A DNA stretch of 64,000 nt from Stenotrophomonas sp. ZAC14D1_NAIMI4_1 (GTDB taxonomy: Bacteria > Pseudomonadota > Gammaproteobacteria > Xanthomonadales > Xanthomonadaceae): NCBI RefSeq assembly GCF_003086775.1, contig NZ_CP026001.1:1390407-1454406 (forward strand), read 5' to 3'. The first letter of the stretch is position 1. Each line of letters begins with the position of its first letter. The notes under the pieces were generated by a model. That model worked only from the letters and a program-made list of their open reading frames with translations, had not been told where the DNA came from and searched no databases. Shown here one piece after another: positions 6,928 through 22,902 of the stretch. The position numbers were made by a program, and so were the translations under genes.

Positions 6928-8481
6928 ATGGACGGGAGCGGCCGCGTGCAGCAACGTTCAATCGGGCGCTGGCAACTGGCAGCGCGGCGCAAATCGCTGG
7001 AGGCGGTGGTGGCCGACGGCGAGCGCGCCGGCCTGCAGCGCCGGCTGGGTGCCGGCAGCCTGCTGGTGCTGGGCATCGCCAACATCCTCGGCGCCGGCAT
7101 CTATGTGGTGACCGGCACTGCCGCGGCCAGTTTCGCCGGCCCGGCAGTGGTGCTGGCCTTCGTGCTGGCGGCGCTGGCCTGCGGCTTCACCGGGTTGTGC
7201 TATGCCGAACTGTCATCGGTCATCCCGGTGTCCGGCTCAGCGTATTCGTACTGCCAGGTGACACTGGGCGAAGGCGCGGCGTGGGCGCTGGCGTGGATGG
7301 TGATCCTGGAATACCTGCTGGCCGCCGCCGCGGTGGCCGCCGGCTTTGCCGGTTACCTCACCAGCCTGCTGGGCGATCTGCACGTGGCCGTGCCGCTGGG
7401 GCTTGCGGTGTCCAGCGTGACCGCCACCGCGCAGGGCGGGCATACCGTGCTGTCCTTCAGCGGCGGCATCAATGCGGTGGCAGCGCTGGCGGTGCTGGCC
7501 GCTGCCGCCGTGCAGATTGCCGGGGTAGGGCGCTCGGCACTGGCCAACCTGGTGCTGGTGCTGATCAAGATCGCGGTGCTGCTGGCCTTCATCGCGGTCG
7601 GTTCGCAGTTCATCGACGCTGCGCACTGGCAGCCGTTCCTGCCGGCCAACGAGGGCGGCTTCGCCTACGGCTGGCCCGGCGTGCTGCGTGCAGCGGCCAT
7701 GCTGTTCTTTGCCTACCTGGGCTTTGAGACTGTCTCGATGGCCGCCGCCGAAGCGCGCCAGCCACGTCGTGACGTGCCGGTGGGCATCCTCGGCTCGCTG
7801 GTGGTGTGCACCGTGCTGTACGTGGCGGCCGGCGCTGTGCTGACCGGGCTGGTGCCGTTCCGCGAGCTGGGCGTGCCGGACCCGGTTGCGCTGGCGGTGG
7901 ACCGCATCGGCTGGCCGGGGTTTGCGGTGCTGATCAAGATCGGCGCGCTGACCGGGCTGGGCTCGGTGCTGCTGGCCAACGCCTACGGCGCCTCACGCAT
8001 CAGCCTGAGCATCGCCCGCGATGGCCTGCTGCCGACGTTCTTCACCCGCGTGCACCCCACGCTCGGCACACCGTGGCTGGCCAGCGTGGCATTCGGCAGC
8101 GCCAGTGCCCTGCTGGCCGCGCTGCTGCCGATCAGCATCCTGGGCGACCTGATCTGCCTGGGCATCGCCTCGGCGTTCATCGTGGTGTGCATCGCGGTGA
8201 TGTGGCTGCGCTCCACCCGTCCAGAGCTGCGTGGCGGCTTCCGCGTGCCACTGGGCGGGGTCTGGATCGGCGGCGTGTGGCTGGGCGTTGTGCCGGTGCT
8301 GGGCATCGTGATGTGCGTGGCGATGATGGTGCCGGTGCTGGGCGACATGCTGGCCCAGGTCCGCCGCGGCGATGTGCTGCCGGCCAGCATCCTGCTGGTT
8401 TACGTGCTGGCCGGTGCGGCCATCTATGTCTTCTACGGGCAGCGCCGTGCGCGCCGCCGGCTTCAGGAACCCATGGCATGA
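6928..8481 (+). CDS. APC-superfamily amino acid/amine permease
   Basis: 517 residues with about 12 hydrophobic helices and a short cytoplasmic N terminus. The first helix carries LGIANILGAGIYVVTG, the hallmark unwound-helix motif GAGIY of APC transporters, and ELSSVIPVSGSAYSY is typical of the family. It should move an amino acid or its amide across the inner membrane. It starts 4 bp after the TonB receptor stop, and the amidase start overlaps its stop (ATGA), so translation is coupled. Closest in style to cationic amino acid transporters, but the substrate cannot be named from sequence alone. Confidence 0.9.
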   Translation: MDGSGRVQQRSIGRWQLAARRKSLEAVVADGERAGLQRRLGAGSLLVLGIANILGAGIYVVTGTAAASFAGPAVVLAFVLAALACGFTGLCYAELSSVIPVSGSAYSYCQVTLGEGAAWALAWMVILEYLLAAAAVAAGFAGYLTSLLGDLHVAVPLGLAVSSVTATAQGGHTVLSFSGGINAVAALAVLAAAAVQIAGVGRSALANLVLVLIKIAVLLAFIAVGSQFIDAAHWQPFLPANEGGFAYGWPGVLRAAAMLFFAYLGFETVSMAAAEARQPRRDVPVGILGSLVVCTVLYVAAGAVLTGLVPFRELGVPDPVALAVDRIGWPGFAVLIKIGALTGLGSVLLANAYGASRISLSIARDGLLPTFFTRVHPTLGTPWLASVAFGSASALLAALLPISILGDLICLGIASAFIVVCIAVMWLRSTRPELRGGFRVPLGGVWIGGVWLGVVPVLGIVMCVAMMVPVLGDMLAQVRRGDVLPASILLVYVLAGAAIYVFYGQRRARRRLQEPMA

Positions 8482-9917
8482 CCCTTGATGATTTTCCGCT
8501 GGCCCAGGCACTGCAGCTGGGCCATCTGGATGCGCACGACCAGCACGCGCTGGTGCGTGCCGGCGAACTCTCACCGCGCGAACTGGTTGCTGCGGCACTG
8601 ATGCGCGTGCGCCACCTGGACCCGGTGCTGGGCGCACTCAGCCATGTCGATGCCGATGCGGCGCTGGAGCACGCGTCGCGCGTGCGCCGCGATGCACCCA
8701 TGGCCGGCGTGGCGTGGCTGCCGAAGGATTCACTGCGCTACCCAGGCATGCCCACGCGCGGCGGTTCACGCTCGCGCAGCGCGGTGCCGGCGCTGGATGC
8801 ACTGCCATTCGCACAGCGCTTCGATGCGGCTGGGCTGGTGGCCATCGGCAAGAGTGCCATGCCCGAGTTCGGCCTGATGGGGTCGACCGAGCCGCTGCTC
8901 GGGCCGGTCACCCGCAACCCGTGGAACCCCGCGTATTCGCCCGGTGGTTCCAGTGGCGGGGCCGGCGCCGCGCTGGCCGCGGGCATCGTGCCGCTGGCGC
9001 ATGGCAGTGATGGCGCCGGTTCCATCCGCATTCCGGCGTCGGCCTGTGGCGTGGTCGGGCTGAAGCCGGGGCGCGGCGGCACGGTGATGGTGCGCGGACG
9101 GCATGCCATTGAAGACCTGATCGTGGCCGACAGCCTGATGTCGCGCAGCGTGCGCGATACCGCGTGGGCGTTCAGTGCGGCCCATCCCCGCGCCGGGCTG
9201 GACCCTCGCGGCTGGCTGCAGCCGCCGCGCCGGCTGCGCATTGGCGTCATCAGTGAATCGTTGCCTGGGTTGGCACCGGATCCGGCGGTGGAGGCCGTGC
9301 TGGAGCAGACCGTGCAGCTGTGCACGGCGCTGGGCCATGCAGTCGAGGCCACCACCTACCCGCTGCCGGGCCGTGAGGTCTGGCAGGCCCTCTACACCCT
9401 GTGGTCGCGGTTGGGACTGGATGCGGTCGAACTGGCGGTGGCGCAGGGCGGCGATGACTTCGCGGCACATGCACTGGAACCATGGACGCACGGCCTGGCG
9501 CGTTTCCACCGCCAGCACTGTGGCGTGCCCGAGCTGGAGCAGGCCTATGCGGTGCTGGCGGCACTGCCAGCGGCATTCAACCAGTTCCACCAGCACTACG
9601 ACGTGCTGCTGACCCCGACCGTGCGCACCTTGCCGCCGCCGCTGGGCGCACTCGCCCCGGACCGCGACTTCGACACGCTGCTGCCAGCCATGTTCGAGTG
9701 GATCAGCTACACGCCACTGCAGAACCTGGCCGGCACGCCGGCCATCTCGCTGCCGGTGGGCCACCGTGATGGCTTGCCGGTGGGCATGCAGTTTGCCGCC
9801 GACCGCGGGCAGGAGCCCCTGCTGCTGCAGCTGGCCGCCGAACTTGAACAGGCCGCGCCATGGCGCGACCGCTGGCCTGCGGTGTCCGTGGCCAGCGCAC
9901 TGGACCAACCCCACTGA
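8478..9917 (+). CDS. Amidase-signature family hydrolase
   Basis: 479 residues, a full-length amidase-signature enzyme. The catalytic triad is complete: Lys83 in WLPKDSL, cis-Ser158 in the GGSSGGAGAALAAG loop and Ser182 in DGAGSIRIPAS. The spacings (75 and 24 residues) equal those of fatty acid amide hydrolase and relatives. It hydrolyses a carboxamide to acid and amine or ammonia. No signal peptide is seen, so it acts in the cytoplasm on material brought in by the APC permease next door. Its ATG overlaps the permease stop by 4 bases. Possible substrates are amino acid amides or short N-acyl compounds; this is inference from context. Confidence 0.93.
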   Translation: MTLDDFPLAQALQLGHLDAHDQHALVRAGELSPRELVAAALMRVRHLDPVLGALSHVDADAALEHASRVRRDAPMAGVAWLPKDSLRYPGMPTRGGSRSRSAVPALDALPFAQRFDAAGLVAIGKSAMPEFGLMGSTEPLLGPVTRNPWNPAYSPGGSSGGAGAALAAGIVPLAHGSDGAGSIRIPASACGVVGLKPGRGGTVMVRGRHAIEDLIVADSLMSRSVRDTAWAFSAAHPRAGLDPRGWLQPPRRLRIGVISESLPGLAPDPAVEAVLEQTVQLCTALGHAVEATTYPLPGREVWQALYTLWSRLGLDAVELAVAQGGDDFAAHALEPWTHGLARFHRQHCGVPELEQAYAVLAALPAAFNQFHQHYDVLLTPTVRTLPPPLGALAPDRDFDTLLPAMFEWISYTPLQNLAGTPAISLPVGHRDGLPVGMQFAADRGQEPLLLQLAAELEQAAPWRDRWPAVSVASALDQPH

Positions 9918-9930
9918 TGGAGCTCTACTG

Positions 9931-10569
9931 ATGGGCCATGCCCGCGACAGCCGCTACGCCGCCCGCAACCAGGACGACGTGCTGCATCTGCTAGCCAGCC
10001 AACCCTTCGCCTGGCTGGTGTCCACCGGCGGCGACGATGCGGCCTTCACCCCTCTGCCGCTGCGTGCCGAGTGCGATACACACGGCCGGCTGGTGGCCCT
10101 GCGCGGCCACCTGGCCAAGCGCAACCCGCACGTGGCACGGCTGCAGCGCGACGGCCGCGCACAGGCGCTGCTGATGGGGCCGCATGCCTACGTCTCGCCC
10201 AGCTGGCTGGATGACCGCACCCAGGCGCCAAGCTGGAACTATGCCGCGGCGATGTTCGAGCTGGATGTTGCTGTCAGTACGCAGGACGCGGACATCCGCA
10301 ACGAGCTGGATGCGCTGATCACGCAGATGGAAGCCGGCCGTGCCAAGGCCTGGTCGCTGCAGGAAATGGGCGAGCGCTATGCGCGGCTGGCCAGCGGCGT
10401 GGTGGCGCTGCGCGGTGAGGTACGCGAGGTACGCGCCACCTTCAAGCTGGGCCAGGACGAAGCGCGGCACGACTTCGCGCAGCTGCTGGCCGGCCTGCAG
10501 GCCGGTGGCGAGCATGTACTGGCGGACTGGATGATCGACTTCGCGGCCGGCAGCGGGGAGGACGCATGA
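9931..10569 (+). CDS. PaiB-like FMN-binding split-barrel protein
   Basis: 212 residues beginning MGHARDSRYAARNQDD. It has the PaiB/FMN-binding negative regulator layout: PFAWLVSTGG and TPLPLRAE strands, GHLAKRNPH, the PHAYVSPSWL motif and WNYAAA. Relatives include B. subtilis PaiB, described as a repressor of degradative enzymes, but many members may be flavin- or haem-binding oxidoreductases of unknown reaction. It sits 13 bp after the amidase and overlaps the esterase by 4 bp, so it is an integral part of the operon. GGAG precedes the ATG. Whether it acts as a regulator or enzyme here is open. Confidence 0.87.
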   Translation: MGHARDSRYAARNQDDVLHLLASQPFAWLVSTGGDDAAFTPLPLRAECDTHGRLVALRGHLAKRNPHVARLQRDGRAQALLMGPHAYVSPSWLDDRTQAPSWNYAAAMFELDVAVSTQDADIRNELDALITQMEAGRAKAWSLQEMGERYARLASGVVALRGEVREVRATFKLGQDEARHDFAQLLAGLQAGGEHVLADWMIDFAAGSGEDA

Positions 10570-11558
10570 GCCGCAGCCTGGATGCGCTGGACCCGCAGAT
10601 CCGCCGCTTCATCGAAGATGTCTGCAACGAAGGCGCGCGCCTGCGCGCCGGACGCACGCTGGACTGGCCGCAGCGCCGGGTGATTGCCGCACAGGCGCGT
10701 GCGCCATGGCGCGAGGGCGGCCCGCGCATGCGCGACAGCGTGGATGTGCCACTGGACTCCGCGTACGGGCCGTTCAAGCTGCGCGTGCTGACCCCGCAGC
10801 AGCAGCCAGCCGCGCCGTCGCCCGCGCTGGTCTATCTGCACGGCGGCGGCTGGTGCATGTTCGGGCTGGATACGCATGACCGCCTGCTGCGCGAATACGC
10901 TGATCGCGCGCAGCTGCCGGTGGTGGCCATCGATTACAGCCTGGCACCCGAGCACCCGTACCCCGCAGCGCTGGACCAGGCGGTGATCGCGCTGCAGTGG
11001 CTGCGCAGCGAAGGCGCGCGCTTCGGCATCGACGGCCAGCGGCTGGCGCTGGGCGGTGATTCGGCCGGCGCCAACCTGGCCGTGGCCAGCGCCCTGCGCC
11101 TGCGCGATGCCGGCGATCTCGGTTGCGTACAGGCGCTGGTACTGAACTACGGTGCATGGACACCGCAGTTGTCCGAGCAGGCGCGGCAGCAGCTGGGCCA
11201 GCCGCAGGACATGCTCAGCGGGGCGGAAATGGATGAGTTCTGGGCCGCCTACCTCGGCGCGGATGCGCAGGCCGTGGCCGGTCCGCTGTCGGCGCCGCTG
11301 CATGCCGCGCTGCACGGGCTGCCGCCTGCGCTGCTGCTGTGGGGCGACCGCGACGTGCTGGCCGAGCAGAACCAGGCGATGGTGCAGCGCCTGCGCGATG
11401 CTGGGGTAACGGTCGACAGCCAGGTCTATCGCGGCGCGCCGCATAGTTTCATCGAAGCCATGGCGGTGTCCGCACTGGCAAACGATGCCATCGGCCGTGG
11501 CGCAGAATGGGTGCGCCAGCATCTGCTGCCGCCTGCCACACAAGGGAAGCCTGCATGA
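10566..11558 (+). CDS. HSL-type alpha/beta hydrolase (esterase family IV)
   Basis: 330 residues. Hormone-sensitive-lipase family signatures are present: oxyanion motif HGGGW at 92-96, nucleophile Ser166 in GGDSAGAN, acid in LLLWGDRDVL and catalytic His in GAPHSFIE. This family cleaves short-chain esters and sometimes amides or carbamates. No signal peptide, hence cytoplasmic. It overlaps both the PaiB-like gene and the S9 peptidase by 4 bases (ATGA), indicating one translational unit. It probably handles an ester or acyl group of the compound taken up by the operon. Confidence 0.92.
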   Translation: MSRSLDALDPQIRRFIEDVCNEGARLRAGRTLDWPQRRVIAAQARAPWREGGPRMRDSVDVPLDSAYGPFKLRVLTPQQQPAAPSPALVYLHGGGWCMFGLDTHDRLLREYADRAQLPVVAIDYSLAPEHPYPAALDQAVIALQWLRSEGARFGIDGQRLALGGDSAGANLAVASALRLRDAGDLGCVQALVLNYGAWTPQLSEQARQQLGQPQDMLSGAEMDEFWAAYLGADAQAVAGPLSAPLHAALHGLPPALLLWGDRDVLAEQNQAMVQRLRDAGVTVDSQVYRGAPHSFIEAMAVSALANDAIGRGAEWVRQHLLPPATQGKPA

Positions 11559-13558
11559 GCCTGTTGTTGAACCGGATGTGGTGCGCCTGCCTGTGCGTGG
11601 CGGTCGCATTGCCATCGCTGGCTGCCGCCCCGGCGGCGCCGGTGCTGCCGACCCCGCAGGCGATCATGGCGCTGAAGGTGGTGGGCGACCCGCAGATCAG
11701 CCCGGACGGCAGCCGCATCGCCTATACGGTCGGCACGCCACAGCCGCAGGGCAAGCCGCCGCGCAGCCGCATCTGGTGGGTACCGGCCAGTGGCAAGGCA
11801 ACCGCGAAGGAACTGCCCGCCGCAGACGCTGCCAGCGAAGAGCATCCACGCTGGAGCGCCGATGGCCGCTACCTGGACTTCATCTCCACCCGCGCGCTGC
11901 CGGCCGACGTGGAGCATGCTTCGCTGGGCGGCGCGCAGGTCTGGCGCGTGGATGCGCAGGGCGGTGCGCCGCAGCTGCTGACCCGCGCAGAGGGCGATGT
12001 CAGCGCTTTCGAGGTATCACGCGATGGCACGCGCATCGCCTATCTGTCGGCCGATGTCCCCGATGCGGCCACCACCGCCGCCGGCGAGGCCAGGGACGAT
12101 GCGCAGCGCGTGGACCATCCCATTGCGTTCAGCCGCGTCTGGCTGCGCGATCTGCGCAGCGGCCAGACCCGCGTGCTGAGCGCGCCCGGGCAGCAGGTGC
12201 ATGACCTGGCGTGGTCGCCGGACGGGCGCACGCTGGCGCTGCGCGTTTCGCAGGGCACCACGCTGAATGACTTCTGGTACCGCTCGCAGGTGGTGCTGGT
12301 GGATGCTGGCAGCGGCGCGCAGCAGGCCGAGCTGGAACCGCGTGCGTCGGCGCACCCGCTGCAGTGGTCGCCCGACGGCACGCGGTTGCTGTACGGCCAC
12401 CTCGGCGAGCACGGCATGACCGCCGACATCACCGTGCATGCCATCGGCAGCGGCCAGCGCACGGTGCTGGGGGCGGACTGGAACGGTACGCTGTGGCTGG
12501 CGCGCTGGCAGGACGACGGGCACCTGCTGGGGCTGGGCCAGCGCGGCGTGCGCGGCGCCTTCCTGCGCCTGGATGCAGCCAATGGCCACTGGACGGAACT
12601 GGCGCGGCCGCAGATTCCCTTCGCCGCGTTCACCACCACGCGCAGCGGGCGCAGCGCCTACCTGGGCATCGGCAACAGCCAGCCGACGGAAGTCTGGCTG
12701 CAGCAGGGCGCAACGCTGGCGGTGCGCAGCGACCACCACCCGGAAGTTGCGGGCTGGGCGCATGGCAACGTGCGTGAACTGGCGTGGACCTCCTCGCGTG
12801 ATGGGCTGCCGATCACCGGCCTGCTGGTCACGCCGCCCGGCTGGAAGCCCGGCACGCCGCTGCCGACGCTGGTGCAGGGCCATGGCGGTCCGGCGTGGGC
12901 GTGGTGGTCGGGGTGGCTGGGTTCCTGGCACGACTGGGCGCAGCTGCTGTCCACGCACGGCTATGCGGTGTTCCTGCCCAACCCGCGCGGCTCCGAAGGC
13001 GGCGGCCGCGCGTTCGCCGAGCGGGCGCGCAACGATTGGGGCGGCGGTGATTTCCAGGACATCCTCGACGGCGTGGACCTGCTGGAGAAGGAAGGCGTCG
13101 TCGATCCGCAGCGGCTGGCGATCGGGGGCTGGAGCTATGGCGGCTACATGGCGGCCTGGGCGGTGGCGAACAGCCCGCGCTTCAAGACCGCGATCGTCGG
13201 GGCCGGGGTCATCGACATCGGTGCGATGGCGCTGACCACCGATACGCCGGATTACCTGCCCGGCTACTTTGGCGATCCGCTGCGCAACCGCAGCGTCTAC
13301 GACCAGCATTCGCCGATCCGCCATGCCAGCAACATCCGCGTGCCGGTGCTGATCCTGCACGGCGAACAGGACAAGCGCGTGCCGCTGTCGCAGGGCGAGA
13401 TGCTGTACCGCGCGCTGCGCTTCAATGGCACGCCGGTGGAGATGGTGACGTACCCGCGCGGGCCGCACTGGTTCTTCGAGCAGGCGCACGGCCGTGATGT
13501 CCAGCAGCGCGTGCTGGACTGGCTGGACAGCCAGCTGGGCACGGAGCCGGTGCGATGA
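11555..13558 (+). CDS. Secreted S9-family prolyl oligopeptidase/aminoacyl-peptidase
   Basis: 667 residues starting at the ATG that overlaps the esterase stop. A signal peptide with a Cys-containing hydrophobic core ends near LPSLAAA, so the enzyme is periplasmic. A seven-bladed WD40-like propeller (ISPDGSRIAY, RWSADGRYL, AWSPDGRTLAL repeats) precedes the alpha/beta-hydrolase domain with Ser527 in GGWSYGGYM, Asp606 in GEQDKRVP and His638 in GPHWFF. The order fits the dipeptidyl- or acylaminoacyl-peptidase branch of S9. It probably trims a peptide that enters through the TonB receptor before inner-membrane import. Lasso-peptide isopeptidases belong to the same fold and also sit by TonB receptors, but nothing else here points to lasso peptides. 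Confidence 0.92.
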   Translation: MSLLLNRMWCACLCVAVALPSLAAAPAAPVLPTPQAIMALKVVGDPQISPDGSRIAYTVGTPQPQGKPPRSRIWWVPASGKATAKELPAADAASEEHPRWSADGRYLDFISTRALPADVEHASLGGAQVWRVDAQGGAPQLLTRAEGDVSAFEVSRDGTRIAYLSADVPDAATTAAGEARDDAQRVDHPIAFSRVWLRDLRSGQTRVLSAPGQQVHDLAWSPDGRTLALRVSQGTTLNDFWYRSQVVLVDAGSGAQQAELEPRASAHPLQWSPDGTRLLYGHLGEHGMTADITVHAIGSGQRTVLGADWNGTLWLARWQDDGHLLGLGQRGVRGAFLRLDAANGHWTELARPQIPFAAFTTTRSGRSAYLGIGNSQPTEVWLQQGATLAVRSDHHPEVAGWAHGNVRELAWTSSRDGLPITGLLVTPPGWKPGTPLPTLVQGHGGPAWAWWSGWLGSWHDWAQLLSTHGYAVFLPNPRGSEGGGRAFAERARNDWGGGDFQDILDGVDLLEKEGVVDPQRLAIGGWSYGGYMAAWAVANSPRFKTAIVGAGVIDIGAMALTTDTPDYLPGYFGDPLRNRSVYDQHSPIRHASNIRVPVLILHGEQDKRVPLSQGEMLYRALRFNGTPVEMVTYPRGPHWFFEQAHGRDVQQRVLDWLDSQLGTEPVR

Positions 13559-14376
13559 AGGCTGCTGCCGACATCGCGTTCATCGGTGGTGGCAACATGG
13601 CGCGCTGCCTGCTGCAGGGGCTGTTGCGGCAAGGGCAGGACCCCGCACGGATGGTGGTGGCCGATCCCTTGCCGGGCATCCGCGAGGGCCTGTCTGCCGA
13701 GCTCGGCGTGCAGGTGGTCGAACAGGCCACGCAGGCGGCGCAGCGGGCACCGCTGTGGGTGCTGGCGGTGAAGCCACAGGCCGCCGAAGCAGTGTGCCGC
13801 GCGCTGGCCGCCACGGCCGCCGCGGTCTCGCCGCAGGTGGTGTCGATCATGGCCGGCGTTACCCACGCCCGGCTGCAGCAGTGGCTGGGCATCGATGTCA
13901 GTGTGCGCAGCATGCCCAACCAGCCTGCAGCGATCGGCGCGGGCATCACCGCACTGCATGCCGGTGGTGCGCTGCCTGACGCGGCACGTGCACAGGTGGA
14001 AGCGCTGTTCCGTGGCTGCGGGTCCACCGTGTGGCTGGACGAGGAAGCGCAGATGGACACGGCGACGGCGGTGGCCGGCAGTGGCCCGGCGTATCTGTAC
14101 CTGCTGGCCGAAGCCCTGCAGCGGGCCGCCGAAGTGCGCGGCCTGCCGGCCGACAGCAGCCGGCAGCTGGCCCAGCAGACGCTGCTGGGCGCAGCGCGCA
14201 TGCTGCAGGCCTCTGCCACGACACCCGCGCAGCTGCGGGCGCAGGTGACGTCTCCCGGCGGAACCACGCAGGCCGCGCTGGCGGTGCTGGCCGAGGGCGG
14301 CTGGCCGGCGATGCTGGACGCGGCCGTCGGAGCGGCCCAGGCACGCGCGCAGGCCATGGCCGCATCAGGTGGCTGA
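13555..14376 (+). CDS. proC: Pyrroline-5-carboxylate reductase ProC
   Basis: 273 residues (E. coli ProC has 269). The Rossmann motif is IAFIGGGNMA at the N terminus; the C-terminal helical domain carries the ProC signature TAVAGSGPAYLYLLAEAL and VTSPGGTTQAAL. The enzyme reduces 1-pyrroline-5-carboxylate to proline with NAD(P)H. Its ATG overlaps the S9 peptidase stop by 4 bases, so it is the last gene of the operon. A biosynthetic gene at the end of an uptake and hydrolysis operon may be chance, or may indicate that a cyclic imine or proline-related product is formed from the imported compound (inference). Confidence 0.95.
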   Translation: MKAAADIAFIGGGNMARCLLQGLLRQGQDPARMVVADPLPGIREGLSAELGVQVVEQATQAAQRAPLWVLAVKPQAAEAVCRALAATAAAVSPQVVSIMAGVTHARLQQWLGIDVSVRSMPNQPAAIGAGITALHAGGALPDAARAQVEALFRGCGSTVWLDEEAQMDTATAVAGSGPAYLYLLAEALQRAAEVRGLPADSSRQLAQQTLLGAARMLQASATTPAQLRAQVTSPGGTTQAALAVLAEGGWPAMLDAAVGAAQARAQAMAASGG

Positions 14377-14409: not shown

Positions 14410-16518
14410 TCAGGCCAACGACAGCAGGAACAGCCCGTAGGGCAGATCATGGTCCAGCCACTGATCCTCCACGCTCCAGCCGGCACATTCTGCGATTGCC
14501 GCCAGGCGCTGGGGCGTGAATTTGTGGGAGCTCTCGGTGTGCAGTCCTTCGCCAAGGGCGAAGTGAAACGCATGGCCTGCAATCCGTACCGCCTGCTCGC
14601 GGCGGCTTAGCAGCCACATCTCCATGCGGGACTCGCTGGCGTTCCAATGCGCACGGTGCAGGAATGCACCCGGATCGAAGTTGGCGCCCAGTTCGTCGTT
14701 GATCCGCACCAGCAGATTGCGGTTGAAGGCTGCGGTGACGCCGGCGGCATCGTCGTACGCAGCCAACAGCGTTTCTTTGTCCTTTACCAGGTCCACGCCG
14801 ATCAGAAGCTGGGCGCCCGAGCCCAGGAGGTTGCGCAGATGCGACAGCAGCGCGACCGATTCCCCTGGGCTGAAGTTGCCCAGCGTAGAACCCGGGAAGA
14901 AGCCCAGCCGCGCATGTCCATCAGCGAGCCCGGGCAGGGTGACAGCCTGGGTGAAGTCGCCTGCCAGTGCGGCCAGTTGCAGATGGGGATAGTCACGTGC
15001 GATGGCCGCACCCGCCTGCGCAATCGCGGACGCGCTGATGTCGATGGGTACGTAAGCGCCGAGGTGGGGCGAGGCATCCAGGAGGACGCGTGTTTTCACG
15101 CTGGCGCCGCTGCCGAACTCTACGAGCACGGTTCCGGGTTCGATGTGGCCGGCGATGTCGGCCGCCGAAGACCGCAGGAGGGCCAGTTCGGTGCGGGTAA
15201 GGTAGTACTCGGGCGTGGCGCAGATCGCCTCGAACAAGCGCGAGCCTTCTTCGTCATAGAAGTATTTGGCCGGCATATTTTTCGGGGTCGCCGAGAAACC
15301 ACGAAGCACGTCATCGAGGAACGCGCTTGACGGCGCCGACACGGCAGGATCGTTGTCGCGTGCCAGGCGCACGCCATTGAACATCCAGCGCTGGGCAGGC
15401 GCAAAGAAATTACGGTACGTCGCCCTTGCGTGTCCGGGAGGGGTGATCGAGGAACCACCGCGCAGGACCATCTGGCCCGCCATGAACTTGCCGTTGTATT
15501 CGCCCACGGTTCCAGGCGGCGCGCGGAAGCCGGGGTAGGCGTGGTAGGCGCTGCAGGTCCATTGCCATGCCTGGTCGTACAGGCCGCCCAGGTTGGGGAG
15601 CGTCATTGCAGCGTGCTCCCACTCGGCTTCGCTGGGCAGGCGCGCACCGGCCCAGCGAGCGTAAGCGTCAGCCTCGTAGTAGCTGACGTGGCGCACGGGA
15701 GCGTGTGGATCCAATGGGGTGCGGCCCTGCAGCGTCAGGGTGCTCCATTGGTCGCCTTCATCGCGCCAGTAGAGCGGTGCCTGCCAGCCCTGCGCTTGGG
15801 CGGTTGCCCAGCCATCGGCCAGCCACAGCAGAGGCCGCCGATAGCCGCCATCGGCCATGAAGGCCAGCCATTCCTCATTGCTGACCAGGCGATCGGCAAG
15901 CGCGAAGGCGTGCAGGAAGACCGTGTGGCGAGGCATTTCATTGTCGAAAGCGAAGTCGTCGCCTGTCGCGCCGATGTCCACCAGCCCGCCGGCGATGTCG
16001 GCCCATTGCATGGGCCCGGCAGGCCGCGCGCGGGAGGGGAGTTCCGGCCGATACGCAGGCGACAGCGCCGATCGGGAGAACAGGTGCAGCACGTCCATGA
16101 GGATCAGTTCCTGGTGCTGCTCCTCATGTGCCAGGCCAAGCTCGACCAGTCCGGTGCAGGCCGCCGGCAACGCGTGCAGCAGCCTGTCCATTGCAGCATC
16201 GACATGGGCGCGATACGCCAGTACATCGTGGGCGGAGGGGCGTGTCATCAGGCCGCGTTCTGCACGCGGCAGCCGTGGGCCGGCGCCTTCGTAGTACGAG
16301 TTGAAGAGGTAGCCGAACGTTGGATCAAACGCAGCGTACCCCGGCAGGTGCGGCGCCAGCAGGAACGTTTCGAAGAACCAGCTGGTATGTGCCAGATGCC
16401 ACTTGGTCGGGCTGGCATCCGGCATGGATTGGGCCGCCTGGTCTTCCACGCTCAGCGGGCCGGCCAGAGCGACGCTGTGCGCACGTACAACACGATAGCG
16501 ACGGCGTAGATGGCTCAC
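14410..16518 (-). CDS. egtB-egtD: Fused ergothioneine synthase EgtB-EgtD
   Basis: One open frame encodes two enzymes. Residues about 1-388 are EgtB: a DinB-like iron domain with WHLAHTSWFFE and His131/His135 in LAHEEQHQEL, then a formylglycine-generating-like domain ending GVRLARD. Residues about 400-702 are EgtD, the histidine N-alpha-trimethyltransferase: AKYFYDEEGSRLFEAI, SAM motif VEFGSGAS and C-terminal TESSHKF. EgtD makes hercynine and EgtB adds the sulfur by O2-dependent C-S bond formation. EgtC and EgtE are not in the window. I prefer the GTG at 16518 (4 bp after the upstream stop); an ATG at 16557 would add 13 residues and overlap that gene. Fungal Egt1 has the opposite order (EgtD first). 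Confidence 0.92.
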   Translation of the reverse strand: MSHLRRRYRVVRAHSVALAGPLSVEDQAAQSMPDASPTKWHLAHTSWFFETFLLAPHLPGYAAFDPTFGYLFNSYYEGAGPRLPRAERGLMTRPSAHDVLAYRAHVDAAMDRLLHALPAACTGLVELGLAHEEQHQELILMDVLHLFSRSALSPAYRPELPSRARPAGPMQWADIAGGLVDIGATGDDFAFDNEMPRHTVFLHAFALADRLVSNEEWLAFMADGGYRRPLLWLADGWATAQAQGWQAPLYWRDEGDQWSTLTLQGRTPLDPHAPVRHVSYYEADAYARWAGARLPSEAEWEHAAMTLPNLGGLYDQAWQWTCSAYHAYPGFRAPPGTVGEYNGKFMAGQMVLRGGSSITPPGHARATYRNFFAPAQRWMFNGVRLARDNDPAVSAPSSAFLDDVLRGFSATPKNMPAKYFYDEEGSRLFEAICATPEYYLTRTELALLRSSAADIAGHIEPGTVLVEFGSGASVKTRVLLDASPHLGAYVPIDISASAIAQAGAAIARDYPHLQLAALAGDFTQAVTLPGLADGHARLGFFPGSTLGNFSPGESVALLSHLRNLLGSGAQLLIGVDLVKDKETLLAAYDDAAGVTAAFNRNLLVRINDELGANFDPGAFLHRAHWNASESRMEMWLLSRREQAVRIAGHAFHFALGEGLHTESSHKFTPQRLAAIAECAGWSVEDQWLDHDLPYGLFLLSLA

Positions 16519-16522
16519 AGAC

Positions 16523-17104
16523 TCAGCCCGATTTGACGGCCGAACGTGCGCGCGCATTCTTGACGGTCACCCAGATGGCCGAGAGCAGGAAATAGAACGC
16601 GCCCAGGCCGGCGTAGGGGGCCACCGTGGTGACATCCAAGGCGATGCCACTGCTGGCCTGCTTGAAGAAGAACGCGCCGGCGGCTGCCGATTGCGCGCCA
16701 CTGAGGATCATGACCCACTGGCCACCTGTGCTCTTCCAGCGACGCACCGCGGTAGCCAGTTGCAGCAGGCCGGAGAGGATCGCCCAGACACCGAAGACCT
16801 TGATCGTGGCGACCATGCCGGAAGTGAGGGCAACGCCGATGGCAATGGCAGTCACCACGCTGACGATGAAGTTGAACATCTGCGTGCCGTTCGCACCCAA
16901 GCCACCGGTGCGGCGGGCATCGATGTAGTTCGCCAGCGCATCCCATGCCGGGTACAGCACCAGCAGCACCGCACCTACGGCTGCGTTCTGCCGGCCAACC
17001 ACAACGGCCAAGGCGATCCACGCAATGGACACGCCTGCGCGCAGGAAGTAGTAGCGCTGGAGCCAGGCACTTGCCGGGGACACGGAAGGGGCGGTGGCAG
17101 TCAT
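16523..17104 (-). CDS. DUF308-like (HdeD-type) membrane protein
   Basis: 193 residues with about six hydrophobic segments, including SIAWIALAVVVG, VFGVWAILSGLLQLATA and LGAFYFLLSAIWV. The general look is that of DUF308/HdeD-type small membrane proteins, whose function is mostly unknown. The GVWAILSGLLQL motif with a following basic stretch is typical. It lies 4 bp upstream of the EgtB-EgtD gene and both are presumably read from the promoter at 17105-17260, which holds two copies of the CTACC-N4-GGTAG palindrome. The first gene of a TetR-controlled unit is often an efflux or stress membrane protein. Confidence 0.8.
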   Translation of the reverse strand: MTATAPSVSPASAWLQRYYFLRAGVSIAWIALAVVVGRQNAAVGAVLLVLYPAWDALANYIDARRTGGLGANGTQMFNFIVSVVTAIAIGVALTSGMVATIKVFGVWAILSGLLQLATAVRRWKSTGGQWVMILSGAQSAAAGAFFFKQASSGIALDVTTVAPYAGLGAFYFLLSAIWVTVKNARARSAVKSG

Positions 17105-17153
17105 GAAATTCTCCGGATTCGAAAGGAAGAAGCGTGGGTGGGTGTTGGCCTAT

Positions 17154-17167
17154 CTACCAATAGGTAG
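17154..17167. promoter_or_regulatory. TetR operator-like palindrome, copy 1
   Basis: CTACCAATAGGTAG, a perfect 5-bp inverted repeat with a 4-bp spacer, 50 bp upstream of the DUF308-like gene. It matches three other copies in the window, one of them in front of tetR itself. Confidence 0.75.
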
Positions 17168-17188
17168 GCTATCGACGTGCATGCTTGC

Positions 17189-17202
17189 CTACCAGTAGGT
17201 AG
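17189..17202. promoter_or_regulatory. TetR operator-like palindrome, copy 2
   Basis: CTACCAGTAGGTAG, 35 bp from copy 1 (centre to centre) in the same promoter region. Paired sites would allow two repressor dimers to bind. Confidence 0.75.
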
Positions 17203-17263
17203 ATCGTCAATCAGTTTGCGTCAGGGCACCGCGCCGGGTTGCCTTCTGTTCATTTCCTGGGCT

Positions 17264-17854
17264 TCAGCGGGACGCCGGGTGGCCTTGGAAGTGCTCGATG
17301 ACCCACTGTTCGCAGAGTGCCCACAGGCTCGGCGCGCCTTCGCGGATGACCGGACCGTAGCGCTCGAGCACTTGTTCCATGGAGACGCCATTCTCGGTCC
17401 AGGTCCCGCCGCCGGCGAATATGTTCGCCAGCAGGGGTTGGAAGCGATCCAACGCCTTCGCAAACCTGGCGTCGGCGCTGCGCGCGCCTTCAAATTCATG
17501 CCACAGCGCCAACATGTCCTCGCCCTGTGGCTGCGGCAGCATGCCGAAAAGCCGCTGGGCGGCAACGGCCTCCAGCTGCGCCTGATGCGCGGCACTGGTG
17601 CCGCCATGGATGGGCATGTCACCCACGTCAATTTCAACGATGTCGTGCAGCAGAAGCATGGTCAGCACGCGTTGCACATCGACCGCTTCCGCGGCGTGCT
17701 CAACCAGCACAAGTGCGTACATCGCCAAGTGCCAGGAATGTTCGGCCGAGTTCTCACGCCGGCTGCGGTCGAGCAGGGGAGACTGGCGAACCACGTTCTT
17801 CAGCTGGTCGATCTCGCGAAGGAAGGCTACCTGTTTCTGGAGTGTCGTCGCCAT
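17264..17854 (-). CDS. HD-domain phosphohydrolase (YfbR/HDDC2-like)
   Basis: 196 residues. The HD metal-site motif series is visible: RRENSAEHSWHLA (first His), LLLHDIVEIDVGD (His-Asp) and a later conserved Asp in the helical region. This pattern is that of HDDC2/YfbR-type 5'-nucleotidases, which remove phosphate from (deoxy)nucleoside monophosphates. It begins 30 bp after the tetR stop on the same strand, so the two are likely co-transcribed from the tetR promoter. The link to ergothioneine or the membrane protein is not obvious. Confidence 0.88.
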   Translation of the reverse strand: MATTLQKQVAFLREIDQLKNVVRQSPLLDRSRRENSAEHSWHLAMYALVLVEHAAEAVDVQRVLTMLLLHDIVEIDVGDMPIHGGTSAAHQAQLEAVAAQRLFGMLPQPQGEDMLALWHEFEGARSADARFAKALDRFQPLLANIFAGGGTWTENGVSMEQVLERYGPVIREGAPSLWALCEQWVIEHFQGHPASR

Positions 17855-17884
17855 GGAGCACGCTTCCCGTGGGGTCGAAGGGGA

Positions 17885-18472
17885 TCAGGCGGCCGGGGCC
17901 AGGCGATCAAGCGACACCCGGACCAGGGACTCGAACGCCGCCGGTTCGCCCAGGCCACGCGCGGCGAGCATCGCACCATGTACCGCGGCCATGAAGGTGC
18001 GGGCTTCCACCTGTGGCGTCGCATGCAGCTGCAGCTGGCCCCGGGAGAGACCCCGCGTCATCGTCGAGGTGAGCCACTGGCTCAGGTCATCGAAATGCCC
18101 GCGCACCTCCGCCGCGACTTCGGGCGGCAGCGTGGGCAGCTCGGCTGCCAGCATCGCGCCGATGCAGAACGAGGACGTGCCGCCCAGGATGCAGCTGGAC
18201 CAGTAATCCGAATAGGCGGTCAGCTCGCCCAGCGGGTTGTCCAGTTGGCCTTCCAGCAGCGCCAGGCCGGCACGGGCTTCGGCGCGGTAGCGCGCCACGA
18301 CCTCCCGGACCAGATCGACCTTGGTGGGGAAGTGGTGGTGGATGCTGGCCTTGCTGATGTTTACCTGCGCTGCGATGTCTGCATAGCTGAAACTGTTGTA
18401 GCCCCCAGACTCGAGCAGAATACGGGTGTAGGCGACGATCTCAGCAGCTTTTGGCGAGAGCTCGGTATCCAT
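17885..18472 (-). CDS. TetR-family repressor
   Basis: 195 residues. The N-terminal helix-turn-helix reads FSYADIAAQVNISKASIHHHFPTK-type, the classical TetR recognition helix, followed by an all-helical ligand domain with TetR_C style. I chose the ATG at 18472; the longer frame from 18526 would run through the operator. A CTACC-N4-GGTAG palindrome lies 29 bp upstream of the start, consistent with autorepression. The same palindrome in front of the DUF308/EgtB-EgtD unit and of the thioesterase at 35.9 kb defines its likely regulon. The inducer is unknown; fatty acyl or quinone-like ligands are common in this family. Confidence 0.92.
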   Translation of the reverse strand: MDTELSPKAAEIVAYTRILLESGGYNSFSYADIAAQVNISKASIHHHFPTKVDLVREVVARYRAEARAGLALLEGQLDNPLGELTAYSDYWSSCILGGTSSFCIGAMLAAELPTLPPEVAAEVRGHFDDLSQWLTSTMTRGLSRGQLQLHATPQVEARTFMAAVHGAMLAARGLGEPAAFESLVRVSLDRLAPAA

Positions 18473-18500
18473 GAGGCACCTGAAGGTCCAAAGTATCAAT

Positions 18501-18514
18501 CTACCAGTTGGTAG
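18501..18514. promoter_or_regulatory. TetR operator-like palindrome, copy 3 (tetR promoter)
   Basis: CTACCAGTTGGTAG between tetR (start 18472) and the 3' end of the sialidase-like gene. Placement directly before tetR supports autoregulation. Confidence 0.78.
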
Positions 18515-18535
18515 GCTTTGGCGCAACGTGCCCGT

Positions 18536-19630
18536 TCAGCGGTCAGTCGAGGGCCGGTATGTGCCGAACCGGATCTGCACAGCCCCCTCCACCACATTGA
18601 CCACGCCGATCTCCTGCGGGCCGATCTCGACAACAGCGGGCCAGGAGTGACGGAAGCCGAGTGGCCATGCGGGCGGGCGGATCGTTTTCCAGGTAGCGCC
18701 GGCGTCCTCGCTTGCACTGACCTCATTGAGGCAGGAGGTCACGAACATTGCGCCGCTGGTGGTACTCGTGACATGCGGGCCGCACTTCTGGTCGGCGAGG
18801 GGCGTGCCCAGGCCGACCGGCCACGTGCGGCCGTCCGTTGACGTTTTGTACGACACCGGGCATTGAGGATCGTCGCCGCAGGTTTCCAGCACCATCAGGT
18901 AGCCGCCGCCCGGGCGAGCCGAGATGACCGGCATGCCCGGCCGCAGGCGGCCTCCGCCAGGCTGTTCGGCAATGGTCGCCGCTGCAGACCAGGTGCGGCC
19001 ACCGTCGTTGGATATGCGCTGCGACACCACCTGGTTGTAGGAGGGTTTTTCGTCGGCGCGGGTTTCATCGGCATAGACCACCGACAGGCTGCCATCCTGC
19101 AGCGGCGTCAGCACGGGTTCCCAGACACCGCGGTCCTTGCGCCCGCGCGGCGTTTCGTTGGCGGTAATGGTGCTGAGGAAATGCCACTGCCGGCCCTGGT
19201 CATCGCTGGCATACAGGTTGAGACGGTACGAGCGGCGGTCGATCAGTGAGCGCATGGCCAGCAGCACCCGGCCATCGGGCATGACACGCAGTTCGCCGTT
19301 GTCGAGCAGCCGCCCGGGCTCGGACACGCTGGACAAGGGCGCCCACGTGCGCGCGTTGTCATCACTGACCAGCAGCTGCAGCGTGGTCGGGCGGCCCTTG
19401 GGATAGTGAGTGGTTACGGCCAGCCAGCGTCCGTCGGGCAGCCGGGCCAGACGGCCCCAACCGGCATTGGCAGCGTCAACCGTCACCGTGTCTCCCCACT
19501 CCACGGTGGTTGCAGTGGCGGGCTGGGCGGCGACAAGCAGCGCAGCGAAGCCCAGTGCCAGGCTGCTGCGTCGCAGTGGGTGGGCCAGAGCGTCCATCGG
19601 GGGCAGTTTCATCAGGCGCATCTCGGTCAC
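18536..19630 (-). CDS. Secreted sialidase-fold (BNR-repeat) glycosidase-like protein
   Basis: 364 residues. After a signal peptide ending near AQPATA comes a six-bladed propeller with BNR/Asp-box-like repeats (SDDNARTWAPL, SDDQGRQWHFL, SNDGGRTWSAA, STDGRTWPVG, SEDAGATWKTI), the sialidase/neuraminidase fold. It is probably an exported exo-glycosidase or a lectin-like binder; the catalytic Arg triad of true sialidases cannot be confirmed by eye. The GTG at 19630 overlaps the symporter stop (GTGA), which couples it to the galactose operon; ATG codons at 19621 and 19612 are alternatives. Its place in a galactose locus argues against sialic acid as the main substrate. Confidence 0.8.
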   Translation of the reverse strand: MTEMRLMKLPPMDALAHPLRRSSLALGFAALLVAAQPATATTVEWGDTVTVDAANAGWGRLARLPDGRWLAVTTHYPKGRPTTLQLLVSDDNARTWAPLSSVSEPGRLLDNGELRVMPDGRVLLAMRSLIDRRSYRLNLYASDDQGRQWHFLSTITANETPRGRKDRGVWEPVLTPLQDGSLSVVYADETRADEKPSYNQVVSQRISNDGGRTWSAAATIAEQPGGGRLRPGMPVISARPGGGYLMVLETCGDDPQCPVSYKTSTDGRTWPVGLGTPLADQKCGPHVTSTTSGAMFVTSCLNEVSASEDAGATWKTIRPPAWPLGFRHSWPAVVEIGPQEIGVVNVVEGAVQIRFGTYRPSTDR

Positions 19631-21186
19631 CAGTAGGTTGCGTACAGCGCGACAAGGATGGCCACCACGGCCAACGAGGCAACGTTGAACGAAGGCGCGG
19701 TAGCGAAGCCCACGTCATCGGTACGGATGCGGTCACGATCACCGCGTGCACGGGTGGCCAGCGCCACGCCGACGCCGAGCAGCAGCGTGGCCAGGAACAC
19801 CACGCCCATGCGGTCCATGAAGGGCAGCAGCGGCCACAGCAGCTTGAACGCAAGCGACAGCACGAACGAACCGATGGCTGCCGCCAGCGCGCCGGCTTCA
19901 TTGGCGCGCTTCCAGAACAGGCCCAGCAGGAAGATCACCACGATGCCCGGAGTGAAGAAGCCGGTGAACTCCTGGATGTACTGGAAGCCCTGGTCGAAGC
20001 TGCCCAGCAGCGGCCGCGCAGTCAGCAGGGCCACGATGATCGAAACGGTGGCCGCCAGCCGGCCGACCCGGACCAGCTTGGCCTGCGGTGCGTCCGGCGC
20101 GCGCTTGGCGTAGAAATCCAGGGTGAAGATGGTGGCCACCGAATTGATTTTGGATGCCAGCGAAGCGACGATGGCGGCGATCAGGGCGGCGAACACCAGG
20201 CCGAGAATGCCACTGGGCAGCAGCCCCAGCATGGTCGGGTAGGCGGCATCAGGGCGTTCCAGGTTGGGCGCCAGCATCACCGCGGCAATGCCCGGCACCA
20301 CCACGATGGCCGGCAGCAGCAGCTTGAGGAAGGCTGCGAACACCACGCCCTTCTGCGCTTCCTGCAGATTCTTCGCGGCCAGCGCCCGCTGGATGATGTA
20401 CTGGTTGAAGCCCCAGTAGCTCAGGTTGGCGATCCACATGCCGCCCAGCAGCACCGACAGGCCGGGGAGATCCTTGTAGAACGGGTTGTCCTTGCTCAGG
20501 ATCATCTCGAACCGTTCCGGGTGCGCCTGCCACAGCTGCATGAAGCCATCGCTGACACTGCCGTCGCCGATCTTGCCCAGCGTGATGAACGTTACCAGCA
20601 GGCCGCCCAGCACCAGCAGGCAGACCTGCACGATGTCGGTCAGTGCAACCGCCTTCAGGCCACCGTACAGCTGGTACAGCAGCGCGAATGCGCCCAGCAG
20701 CACCAGCGCCACGTTCTGGTCCAGGCCTGCCACGCCGGCAATGGCGATCGAGCCCAGCCAGAGGATCGACGTCAGGTTGACGAATACGTACAGCCCCAGC
20801 CAGAACACCGCCATCAACGTGCGGATGCGGTTGCCGTACCGTTCCTCCAGGAACTGCGGCATGGTGGTGATGCCATTGCGCAGGAAGATCGGCAGGAACC
20901 ACTTGCCCACGATCAGCAGGGTCAGTGCCGCCATCCACTCATACGAGGCGATGGCCAGGCCGATGGCGTAGCCGGAGCCGGACATGCCGATGATCTGTTC
21001 TGCCGAAATGTTGGCTGCGATCAGCGAGGCACCGATCGCCCACCAGGGCAGGCTGCGGCTGGCCAGGAAGTAGTCCTGGGCCGATTTCTGTTGCCCGTCC
21101 TTCTCGCGCGACACCCACTGCGCAAGGATGAAGATGCCGGCCAGGTAAGCCAGGACGATGCAGATATCGAGGGTGGAAAGGCTCAT
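19627..21186 (-). CDS. Sodium:sugar symporter (SSS family, SGLT-like)
   Basis: 519 residues with about 14 transmembrane segments. The SSS pattern is clear: FLASRSLPWWAIGASLIAANISAEQIIGMSG at the first core helices, YGGLKAVALTDIVQ, and WGFNQYIIQRALAAKN. These are signatures of the SglT/sodium-galactose or glucose branch of the solute:sodium symporters. It should take up galactose (or a close hexose) across the inner membrane with sodium. It lies between the lactonase and the sialidase-like gene, in the same direction, and fits as the hexose importer of the locus. Confidence 0.92.
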   Translation of the reverse strand: MSLSTLDICIVLAYLAGIFILAQWVSREKDGQQKSAQDYFLASRSLPWWAIGASLIAANISAEQIIGMSGSGYAIGLAIASYEWMAALTLLIVGKWFLPIFLRNGITTMPQFLEERYGNRIRTLMAVFWLGLYVFVNLTSILWLGSIAIAGVAGLDQNVALVLLGAFALLYQLYGGLKAVALTDIVQVCLLVLGGLLVTFITLGKIGDGSVSDGFMQLWQAHPERFEMILSKDNPFYKDLPGLSVLLGGMWIANLSYWGFNQYIIQRALAAKNLQEAQKGVVFAAFLKLLLPAIVVVPGIAAVMLAPNLERPDAAYPTMLGLLPSGILGLVFAALIAAIVASLASKINSVATIFTLDFYAKRAPDAPQAKLVRVGRLAATVSIIVALLTARPLLGSFDQGFQYIQEFTGFFTPGIVVIFLLGLFWKRANEAGALAAAIGSFVLSLAFKLLWPLLPFMDRMGVVFLATLLLGVGVALATRARGDRDRIRTDDVGFATAPSFNVASLAVVAILVALYATYW

Positions 21187-21212
21187 GGAATCTCCGCGGG
21201 TGGTCCGCGCTG

Positions 21213-22115
21213 TCAGCGGGGCGGCAGGTGGTCGGGGTTGCCGGCGAACCGGCGCTCGGGAATGCCGGCGATGCCGGCATCGATGGCGAACAGATGGCCG
21301 GCCAGCGGCTCGCGGAGGCGTTGGGCCGGGTCCAGCCCGTCCAGCGCGCTGGTGACGAACAACGTCCGCAGGTCGCTGCCGCCGAAGGCGGGCCGGGTCG
21401 GCTGGCTGGCCGGCACATGGATGACGCAGTCCTCGCGGCCATCAGGCAGATAACGGACGATCCGTGATGCGCCCCAGCGCGCATTCCACAGGCCGCCCTC
21501 TGCATCGACCGCGCTGCCGTCCGGCTCGCCGGGCTCATCACGCAGGTCGGCAAACACCTGCACCGGGCCGAGCGTGTCGCCATAGCGGCAGCACCACAGC
21601 AGCTTCTGCTGCGAATCGCAGAAGTACAGGGTGTCACCGCGCGGGCTGAAGGCCACGCTGTTGGAGATCGCAACTGCTGGCAGGGCAAGACGCTCCAGCC
21701 GTAGATCGGCGTGCAGCCGGTAGAACGGCGCCACCGCCTGCTTCGGGCCCACGGCCGGTTCGTGCAGCATGCCGAACACGAAGCGGCCCTGGCGGTCGCA
21801 GGCGCCGTCGTTGGCGCGGGTCTGTGCGACTTCGTCCAGCCGGTGCAGTTCGCGCAGTTCGTTGCGCCCGGGATGGAAGAATGCCAGCCGCGTTGCCAGC
21901 GCCAGCAGGAGCCAGCCATCCGCCTCGCACAAGGCCACCGATGCCAGGCGTTCGGGCATCGCCCACTGGTCCACCGCTGCGGTGGCTGGCTGGTAGCGCC
22001 ACAGCCGGGACTGGACGATGTCGGTCCAGTACACCGCCTGCTCGCGTTCGCACCACACGACGCCTTCACCCAGCGTATTGGCGGACGCCACCGCAGGAGT
22101 CAGGGCTGCATTCAC
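21213..22115 (-). CDS. SMP-30/gluconolactonase family sugar lactonase
   Basis: 300 residues. The metal-binding residues of the SMP-30 propeller are seen in NTLGEGVVW (Glu), TRANDGACD (Asn) and GEPDGSAVD (Asp). It opens an aldonolactone to the free acid. The GTG at 22115 overlaps the SDR stop codon (GTGA); the ATG at 22154 would run back into the SDR gene, so GTG is preferred. With the SDR dehydrogenase upstream and galactonate dehydratase further up, galactono-1,4- or 1,5-lactone is the likely substrate. Confidence 0.9.
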   Translation of the reverse strand: MNAALTPAVASANTLGEGVVWCEREQAVYWTDIVQSRLWRYQPATAAVDQWAMPERLASVALCEADGWLLLALATRLAFFHPGRNELRELHRLDEVAQTRANDGACDRQGRFVFGMLHEPAVGPKQAVAPFYRLHADLRLERLALPAVAISNSVAFSPRGDTLYFCDSQQKLLWCCRYGDTLGPVQVFADLRDEPGEPDGSAVDAEGGLWNARWGASRIVRYLPDGREDCVIHVPASQPTRPAFGGSDLRTLFVTSALDGLDPAQRLREPLAGHLFAIDAGIAGIPERRFAGNPDHLPPR

Positions 22116-22897
22116 ACCCAGCCTCCATCCACGATGAAATCCTGCCCCGTACACATGCGGCTGTCGTCGGCCGCAAGAAACAGCGCTGCACGGGCAAGGT
22201 CATCCGCACGCAGGTAACCGGGCAGGCACTGCGCGCGGCGCAGTTGTGCTTCGCCTTCTTCATCCAGCCACAGCCGCTGCTGTTTTTCGGTGATCACCCA
22301 GCCCGGCACCAGCGCGTTGATACGGATGCGGTCCTGGCCCAGTTCCCGCGCCAGGCCGTTGACCAGGCCGTGCACGGCCGACTTGGCCATGGCGTACATC
22401 GGGTAGCCGCTGTTCTTGATCATCCAGCCGGTGGAACCCAGGCAGATGATCGAGCCGCCGCCGAGTACGCGCATGTCCGGTGCGACGGCCTGGATGGCGA
22501 AGTACTGGTGGCGCAGGTTGACCGCGATGCTGCGCTCGAAGTCTTCGGCTCGCGTGTCGGCAAGGCTGTGGCGGGCGTCGTTGGCGGCATTGTTGACCAG
22601 CACTGCGATGGGGCCGATCTGCCGGCGGGCCTCGGCGATGGCGGCCTGGAAGGACGCAAGCGCGGTGACATCGGCATGCAGGTAGATCGGAACGTGGCGC
22701 ACATCGGCCAGTGCCTGGACCAGTGCATGGCCGCTGGCATCGTCGATGTCGAGGAAGGCGACCCTGGCACCCTGCCGGGCAAAGTGCTCGACGAAGGCCG
22801 CGCCGATGCCGGTGGCACCGCCGGTCACCAGCACACTGCGACCGTCCAGGCTGGGATAGGTGGCCATGGCGGGCTGCGAAGAGAGGGGGATGCTCAT
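22112..22897 (-). CDS. SDR oxidoreductase, probable D-galactose 1-dehydrogenase
   Basis: 261 residues. Classical SDR features: TGGATGIG nucleotide loop at 25-32, Asp50 at the end of strand 2 (NAD preference), NNA at 102-104, and the catalytic Ser155, Tyr168 and Lys172 in YAMAK. In this operon the missing first step is oxidation of galactose to its lactone, and sugar dehydrogenases of this family are known to do that, so the assignment rests on context. The ATG at 22897 is 5 bp after the dgoD stop and has GGTGAG upstream; the longer frame from 22954 overlaps dgoD. Confidence 0.88.
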   Translation of the reverse strand: MSIPLSSQPAMATYPSLDGRSVLVTGGATGIGAAFVEHFARQGARVAFLDIDDASGHALVQALADVRHVPIYLHADVTALASFQAAIAEARRQIGPIAVLVNNAANDARHSLADTRAEDFERSIAVNLRHQYFAIQAVAPDMRVLGGGSIICLGSTGWMIKNSGYPMYAMAKSAVHGLVNGLARELGQDRIRINALVPGWVITEKQQRLWLDEEGEAQLRRAQCLPGYLRADDLARAALFLAADDSRMCTGQDFIVDGGWV

Positions 22898-22902
22898 GCC
22901 GC

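Follow-up and report, generated by a model that had tools for sequence, protein, structure and literature searches.

A single-chain EgtB-EgtD protein in Stenotrophomonas, probably of Caulobacteraceae descent

How does a bacterium come to encode EgtB and EgtD, the two core ergothioneine enzymes, in a single gene, and what might the joined protein do? The question is raised by a 64,000-nucleotide stretch of the chromosome of Stenotrophomonas sp. ZAC14D1_NAIMI4_1 (NZ_CP026001.1, positions 1,390,407 to 1,454,406; here called the window), in which one reading frame runs from a sulfoxide synthase, EgtB, into a methyltransferase, EgtD. In the fungal enzyme Egt1 the order is the other way round, with EgtD N-terminal to the sulfoxide synthase. 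We consider it very probable, judging from sequence comparisons, that the window gene encodes a bifunctional enzyme of the ergothioneine pathway that was fused in Caulobacteraceae by loss of a stop codon and later reached a few Stenotrophomonas by lateral transfer.

An earlier note on this DNA had described an uninterrupted frame in which EgtB ends at an LARD motif near residue 388 and a linker of 12-15 residues leads into EgtD. The frame is there, and it lies on the minus strand, a point on which the note was silent; the corresponding frame on the plus strand of 14410-16518 is broken by three stops. LARD does end at residue 388, and the linker is indeed short, although at 11 residues it falls slightly below the estimate. 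All three Pfam domains that the note had named are matched, in the order DinB_2, FGE-sulfatase, Methyltransf_33, which confirms that the synthase comes first and the methyltransferase second, the reverse of Egt1. What we observe is a single open frame with two complete domains, EgtB then EgtD (Table 1). The NCBIfam model for EgtB (TIGR03440) scores 530.3 bits against an equivalog cut-off of 360 and is covered from position 2 to 413 of 413; that for EgtD (TIGR03438) scores 376.5 bits against 290.9 and is covered from 3 to 300 of 301. No NCBIfam model for the whole fusion was among the matches, and databases name the halves separately. The GTG taken as the start lies just past the stop of the DUF308 gene upstream, from which 4 bases separate it; with the alternative start, an ATG in the same frame at 16557, the frame (14410..16557, minus strand) would gain 13 codons and encode 715 amino acids. 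Across 34 fused rows, comprising the window gene and 33 further loci, the linker is 7-17 residues long and always in frame.

Table 1. Features of the fused gene and of the gene next to it, in window coordinates
Feature	Coordinates	Strand	Description
Fused egtB-egtD gene	14410..16518	minus	702 codons; GTG start at 16518, stop codon 14410-14412; 76.9 kDa
EgtB module	15355..16518	minus	residues 1-388; DinB_2 + FGE-sulfatase; LARD end at residue 388
Linker	15322..15354	minus	residues 389-399 (11 amino acids); lowest model confidence at 393-395
EgtD module	14413..15321	minus	residues 400-702; Methyltransf_33
DUF308 gene	16523..17104	minus	directly upstream of the fused gene, 4 bases apart

What would such a protein catalyze? 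In the N-terminal half, H44, H131 and H135 align with the iron histidines of C. thermophilum EgtB and Y75-Y76 with its Tyr93-Tyr94; for all five, the match to native numbers relies on the printed chain being shifted by three residues from the numbering used in the structure entry. These five residues are invariant in the 34 fused rows. Tyr93-Tyr94 is described as the tyrosine pair of the C. thermophilum enzyme in PMC10903977. In structure comparisons the whole N-terminal module resembles this bacterial type II EgtB (PDB 6qki, 6o6l; TIGR03440) at 51-57% identity; it differs in being joined to EgtD and in lacking a loop of about 17 residues, the long form of which is retained in 6 of the 34 fused rows. 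The aligned histidines, the tyrosine pair and the structure comparison support the assignment of a type II (cysteine-type) EgtB active site to this half, as the earlier note had suggested. In the C-terminal half, Y421, Y438, G543, N548, E662 and S664 align with Tyr39, Tyr56, Gly161, Asn166, Glu282 and Ser284, the substrate-site residues of M. smegmatis EgtD; the position of Ser284 is Ala in two of the 34 rows. This module as a whole resembles the M. smegmatis enzyme (PDB 4pim, 4uy5; TIGR03438) at 43-46% identity, the difference being that here EgtB precedes it through the 11-residue linker. Asn166 and Gly161 are also named in PMC9103826.

The predicted structure folds the two halves as type II EgtB and EgtD. 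A first model, from a 26-row alignment, had a mean predicted local distance difference test (pLDDT) score of 76.0 and a predicted template modelling (pTM) score of 0.56; a second, from 103 rows, had 94.6 and 0.67, with residues 393-395 of the linker below 50. Each domain is firmly predicted and their mutual arrangement is uncertain; because the models are unreliable in this respect, we claim no channelling geometry of the kind that the earlier note had envisaged. For the same reason little meaning attaches to the whole-chain superposition on OvoA (8khq), which gave 20.9 Å.

We propose the following path. The C-terminal EgtD domain would trimethylate L-histidine with S-adenosylmethionine to give hercynine, which would go to the EgtB domain, bound or free. 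There the type II EgtB, with its non-haem iron, three histidines and Tyr-Tyr pair, would combine hercynine with a thiol, probably cysteine, and O2 to form the sulfoxide, and a C-S lyase encoded elsewhere would cleave this to ergothioneine. We infer both activities and the product from homology. Cysteine is probably the sulfur donor, likewise by homology. The earlier note saw no egtC or egtE nearby, and this holds more widely, with no gene above the NCBI cut-offs in the whole genome. Weaker hits carry little weight, because the EgtC and EgtE models give sub-threshold hits in control genomes too (10 and 14 of 14). The absence of EgtC above cut-off is consistent with cysteine as the donor.

Does the protein belong to a family that is already known? 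Fungal Egt1 carries on one chain the same two activities that homology suggests here, and membership was rejected because the domain order is reversed: Egt1 has EgtD first, the window protein EgtB. Egt1 is reported to use cysteine (PMC10903977). OvoA (PDB 8khq) has the same order, synthase first and methyltransferase second, but its product and its methyltransferase differ, and with the OvoA N-terminal model (TIGR04344) the window protein scores 90.3 bits against a cut-off of 400. Membership of the SenA selenoneine synthases was rejected too (NF041186, 339.6 bits against 420). A literature search found no description of an EgtB-EgtD fusion; the main 2014 gene survey (Jones et al.) lay outside that search.

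The view of the fusion as an isolated oddity did not survive a survey of other genomes. A locus was called fused when it gave a single match without a stop or when its DNA was read directly, a rule adopted because some same-frame matches hid an in-frame stop between egtB and egtD. Counts of fusions are lower bounds, as not every two-piece match was read at the DNA level. A scan of genome contigs yielded 42 relatives, 24 of them single frames (L034-L054, L056, L074, L075) and 18 separate neighbouring genes. The fused relatives are assigned to Caulobacter, Phenylobacterium, Caulobacterales and Caulobacteraceae, together with one metagenome-assembled genome (MAG) of Alphaproteobacteria and one of Stenotrophomonas maltophilia. 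A draw of 249 genomes from the order of G453 gave a match in 144. Of these, 41 belong to family f54, by inference the Caulobacteraceae; the fusion is present in 36 of them (a single stop-free match in 34, DNA reading in two), and the other five are split. Among matching Caulobacteraceae genomes, then, the fused form is the commoner one. In 34 f54 genomes it was the sole match reported (E up to 1e-60, with at most four candidates scored per genome).

The fusions of Caulobacter, Phenylobacterium and relatives (L036-L054, L056, L074, L075) share the architecture of the window gene and are its direct relatives, at 56-63% identity (18 of the 22 loci aligned). There the fusion is usually the only match reported, whereas in the window genome an apparently acquired copy stands beside a split pair. 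In a draw from Pseudomonadota, 100 of 398 genomes had a match; among the 14 listed matches that span both halves, nine are stop-free and five have one in-frame stop, that is, are split. A draw from family f29 had the fusion in at least two of 200 genomes. When 369 genomes were drawn from the class, the window gene was the only stop-free match among those listed (E up to 1e-180). Plasmid records also contain relatives: 94 match the protein, 35 of them over at least 80% of its length, all below 60% identity. Among the 15 plasmid matches listed, 11 carry annotations of egtB and egtD as two genes; those of Tistrella and Novosphingobium align in one piece.

Within Stenotrophomonas the fusion is rare. 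Some match (E up to 1e-30) is present in 79 of 91 genomes, and the fusion in three: the window's, G099 and G065. These carriers have three matches each, including a separate EgtB; among the matches listed, the window genome and G099 have separate egtB and egtD, and G065 a separate EgtB. The window genome's own split pair is adjacent (G000 C1:4645189-4647380), with both halves above the equivalog cut-offs. The EgtB model also matches a third locus weakly (G000:C1:3107628-3108443; 50.6 bits, below cut-off), probably another FGE-type protein. The earlier note held that close relatives with two separate genes at the same point would tell against the fusion. Separate genes do occur, in the genus at this other locus and in the five Caulobacteraceae genomes, and they do not undo the fusion seen here.

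Where, then, was the fusion made? The native pair, adjacent and in egtB-egtD order, would be suitable material for a fusion within Stenotrophomonas, an origin that we hold to be next to impossible. The window fusion is 51% and 44% identical to the genome's own split pair vs 68% to a Caulobacterales contig, and forcing the fused and split Stenotrophomonas proteins together costs 261 log units and is rejected by the approximately unbiased (AU) test (p 1.26e-65). In a joined tree of 49 rows the window gene groups with G099 and L035 (support 99), then with the Caulobacterales contig L034 (99), and this group lies within 21 fused rows (99). L034 is not a stray Stenotrophomonas contig, because four neighbouring gene families lie in the order and strand found beside Caulobacter fusions such as L043. 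The tree of the EgtD half places all 34 fused rows in one clade (Shimodaira-Hasegawa-like approximate likelihood-ratio support 98). Because the window gene is nested among Caulobacterales fusions and grouping with its own split genes is rejected, the clear reading of these trees is a Caulobacterales-type fusion that appears to have been acquired laterally. Its single frame, in-frame linker and place in the tree put it among the fused EgtB-EgtD genes of that type. No clear sign of foreign origin was found in base composition when the fused gene (65.3% GC, 76.5% at third positions) was set against nine other window genes (63.6-73.0%, 78-88%). That egtB and egtD have been transferred laterally in general is a point already made in a review of earlier surveys (PMC9103826).

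The fusion itself most likely arose when the stop between adjacent egtB and egtD was lost in Caulobacteraceae, and it would then have passed laterally to a few Stenotrophomonas, which have their native split pair as well. Only a short step would be needed: in 14 of 83 split loci (L002 and L003 being the same pair) the two genes share a frame and are one stop apart. In only four of the 83 (L057, L097, L099, L101) does egtD precede egtB, as the domains do in Egt1.

Several observations weigh against this account of function and origin. The tree of the EgtB half requires two state changes for the fusion, and a single clade holding every fusion is rejected (AU p 1.69e-54) in an analysis that includes the five split pairs of Caulobacteraceae. 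In two of these five f54 pairs, L136 and L137, the egtB and egtD frames overlap without being joined, and both pairs nevertheless fall with fused relatives in the tree. Because of both results there may have been either repeated fusion or later re-splitting among Caulobacteraceae. Nor is the fusion universal in Caulobacter: strain T5M6 carries it (L075), but in the control genome of C. vibrioides nothing scores above the EgtB cut-off. A genome search with the EgtE model identified no dedicated C-S lyase. Both halves look to be under purifying selection, but the ratios of nonsynonymous to synonymous substitution rates (dN/dS) are rough, because dS is 0.85-1.06; against G099, G065 and L034 they are 0.20, 0.21 and 0.20 (EgtB half) and 0.20, 0.30 and 0.30 (EgtD half). 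Finally, the second complete egtB-egtD pair in the genome means that the fused copy may be redundant or functionally different.

The last possibility takes two forms. The fused copy may have changed its job, making another betaine, thiol or selenium product or using another sulfur donor, while the split pair makes ergothioneine. The presence of two systems in one genome favours this, as do the three matches, one a separate EgtB, in each of the other two carriers. But the catalytic residues are conserved in both domains, and the scores with the SenA and OvoA models are below their cut-offs, the latter far below. Moreover, where the fusion is the sole match reported, as in the 34 f54 genomes, it would be expected to work in the normal pathway, provided that this pathway operates there. 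We therefore regard a changed job as unlikely. Less likely still is a redundant, decaying copy of no importance. A gene present in only three of 91 genomes, each with a further EgtB, might be expected to look so; this one is intact in three diverged species (the other two carriers are 73% and 68% identical to the window), its dN/dS is low in both domains, and DUF308, HD and TetR genes are retained nearby.

Could the single frame be an error of sequencing or assembly, or could an internal start yield EgtD as a separate protein? That only one stop separates egtB from egtD in many split pairs gives the idea some footing. A lost-stop artefact is unlikely because the junction is open in all 34 fused rows, with dN/dS of 0.20-0.30 in both domains; the linkers in the 33 further loci, two of them in Stenotrophomonas, vary and still stay in frame. 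We give this explanation hardly any weight. The preferred reading remains a bifunctional pathway enzyme, fused in Caulobacteraceae and moved laterally.

The surroundings of the gene are partly shared. In the window DUF308 is perhaps co-transcribed with the fusion, and it adjoins the fused gene in G099 and G065 as well; it was not found at seven fused loci tested outside Stenotrophomonas, one of which, L034, has an upstream stretch of less than 1 kb. Near the fusion, all three carriers have TetR, HD-domain and DUF308 genes in the same order (window 16523-18526; L141, L142); in the two relatives of the window, HD and DUF308 are set further apart by additional DNA. The genes conserved beside the Caulobacterales fusions (DUF1345, EF-hand, sensor kinase, response regulator) are not shared by the window and give no functional clue. 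On the plus strand at 6928-14376 are six end-overlapping genes for an amino-acid permease, an amidase, FMN_bind_2, Abhydrolase_3, an S9 prolyl-oligopeptidase type protein and ProC, perhaps an operon for the use of proline peptides or amides on shared accessory DNA. The genome has another ProC as well (C1:1135586-1136386), to which this one is 51% identical; its identity to the copies in the two other fusion carriers is 90% and 65%. A minus-strand row at 18536-24051 (BNR-repeat protein, SSF symporter, SMP-30/gluconolactonase, short-chain dehydrogenase, mandelate-racemase-like enzyme) resembles genes for the uptake and breakdown of sugar acids.

Why keep the two enzymes on one chain? It is conceivable, if rather doubtful, that tethering itself is selected, for hand-over of hercynine or for fixed stoichiometry, so that the fusion is kept in Caulobacteraceae and spreads even where an unlinked pair exists. 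Carriers would then hold two parallel ergothioneine systems under different control. The locus presents the two core ergothioneine enzymes fused in bacteria, in the order opposite to that of fungi. It offers a natural test of whether tethering EgtD to EgtB alters flux or leakage of hercynine, for which the genome's own split pair can act as the control, and the fused gene may serve as a single-gene starting point for ergothioneine production.
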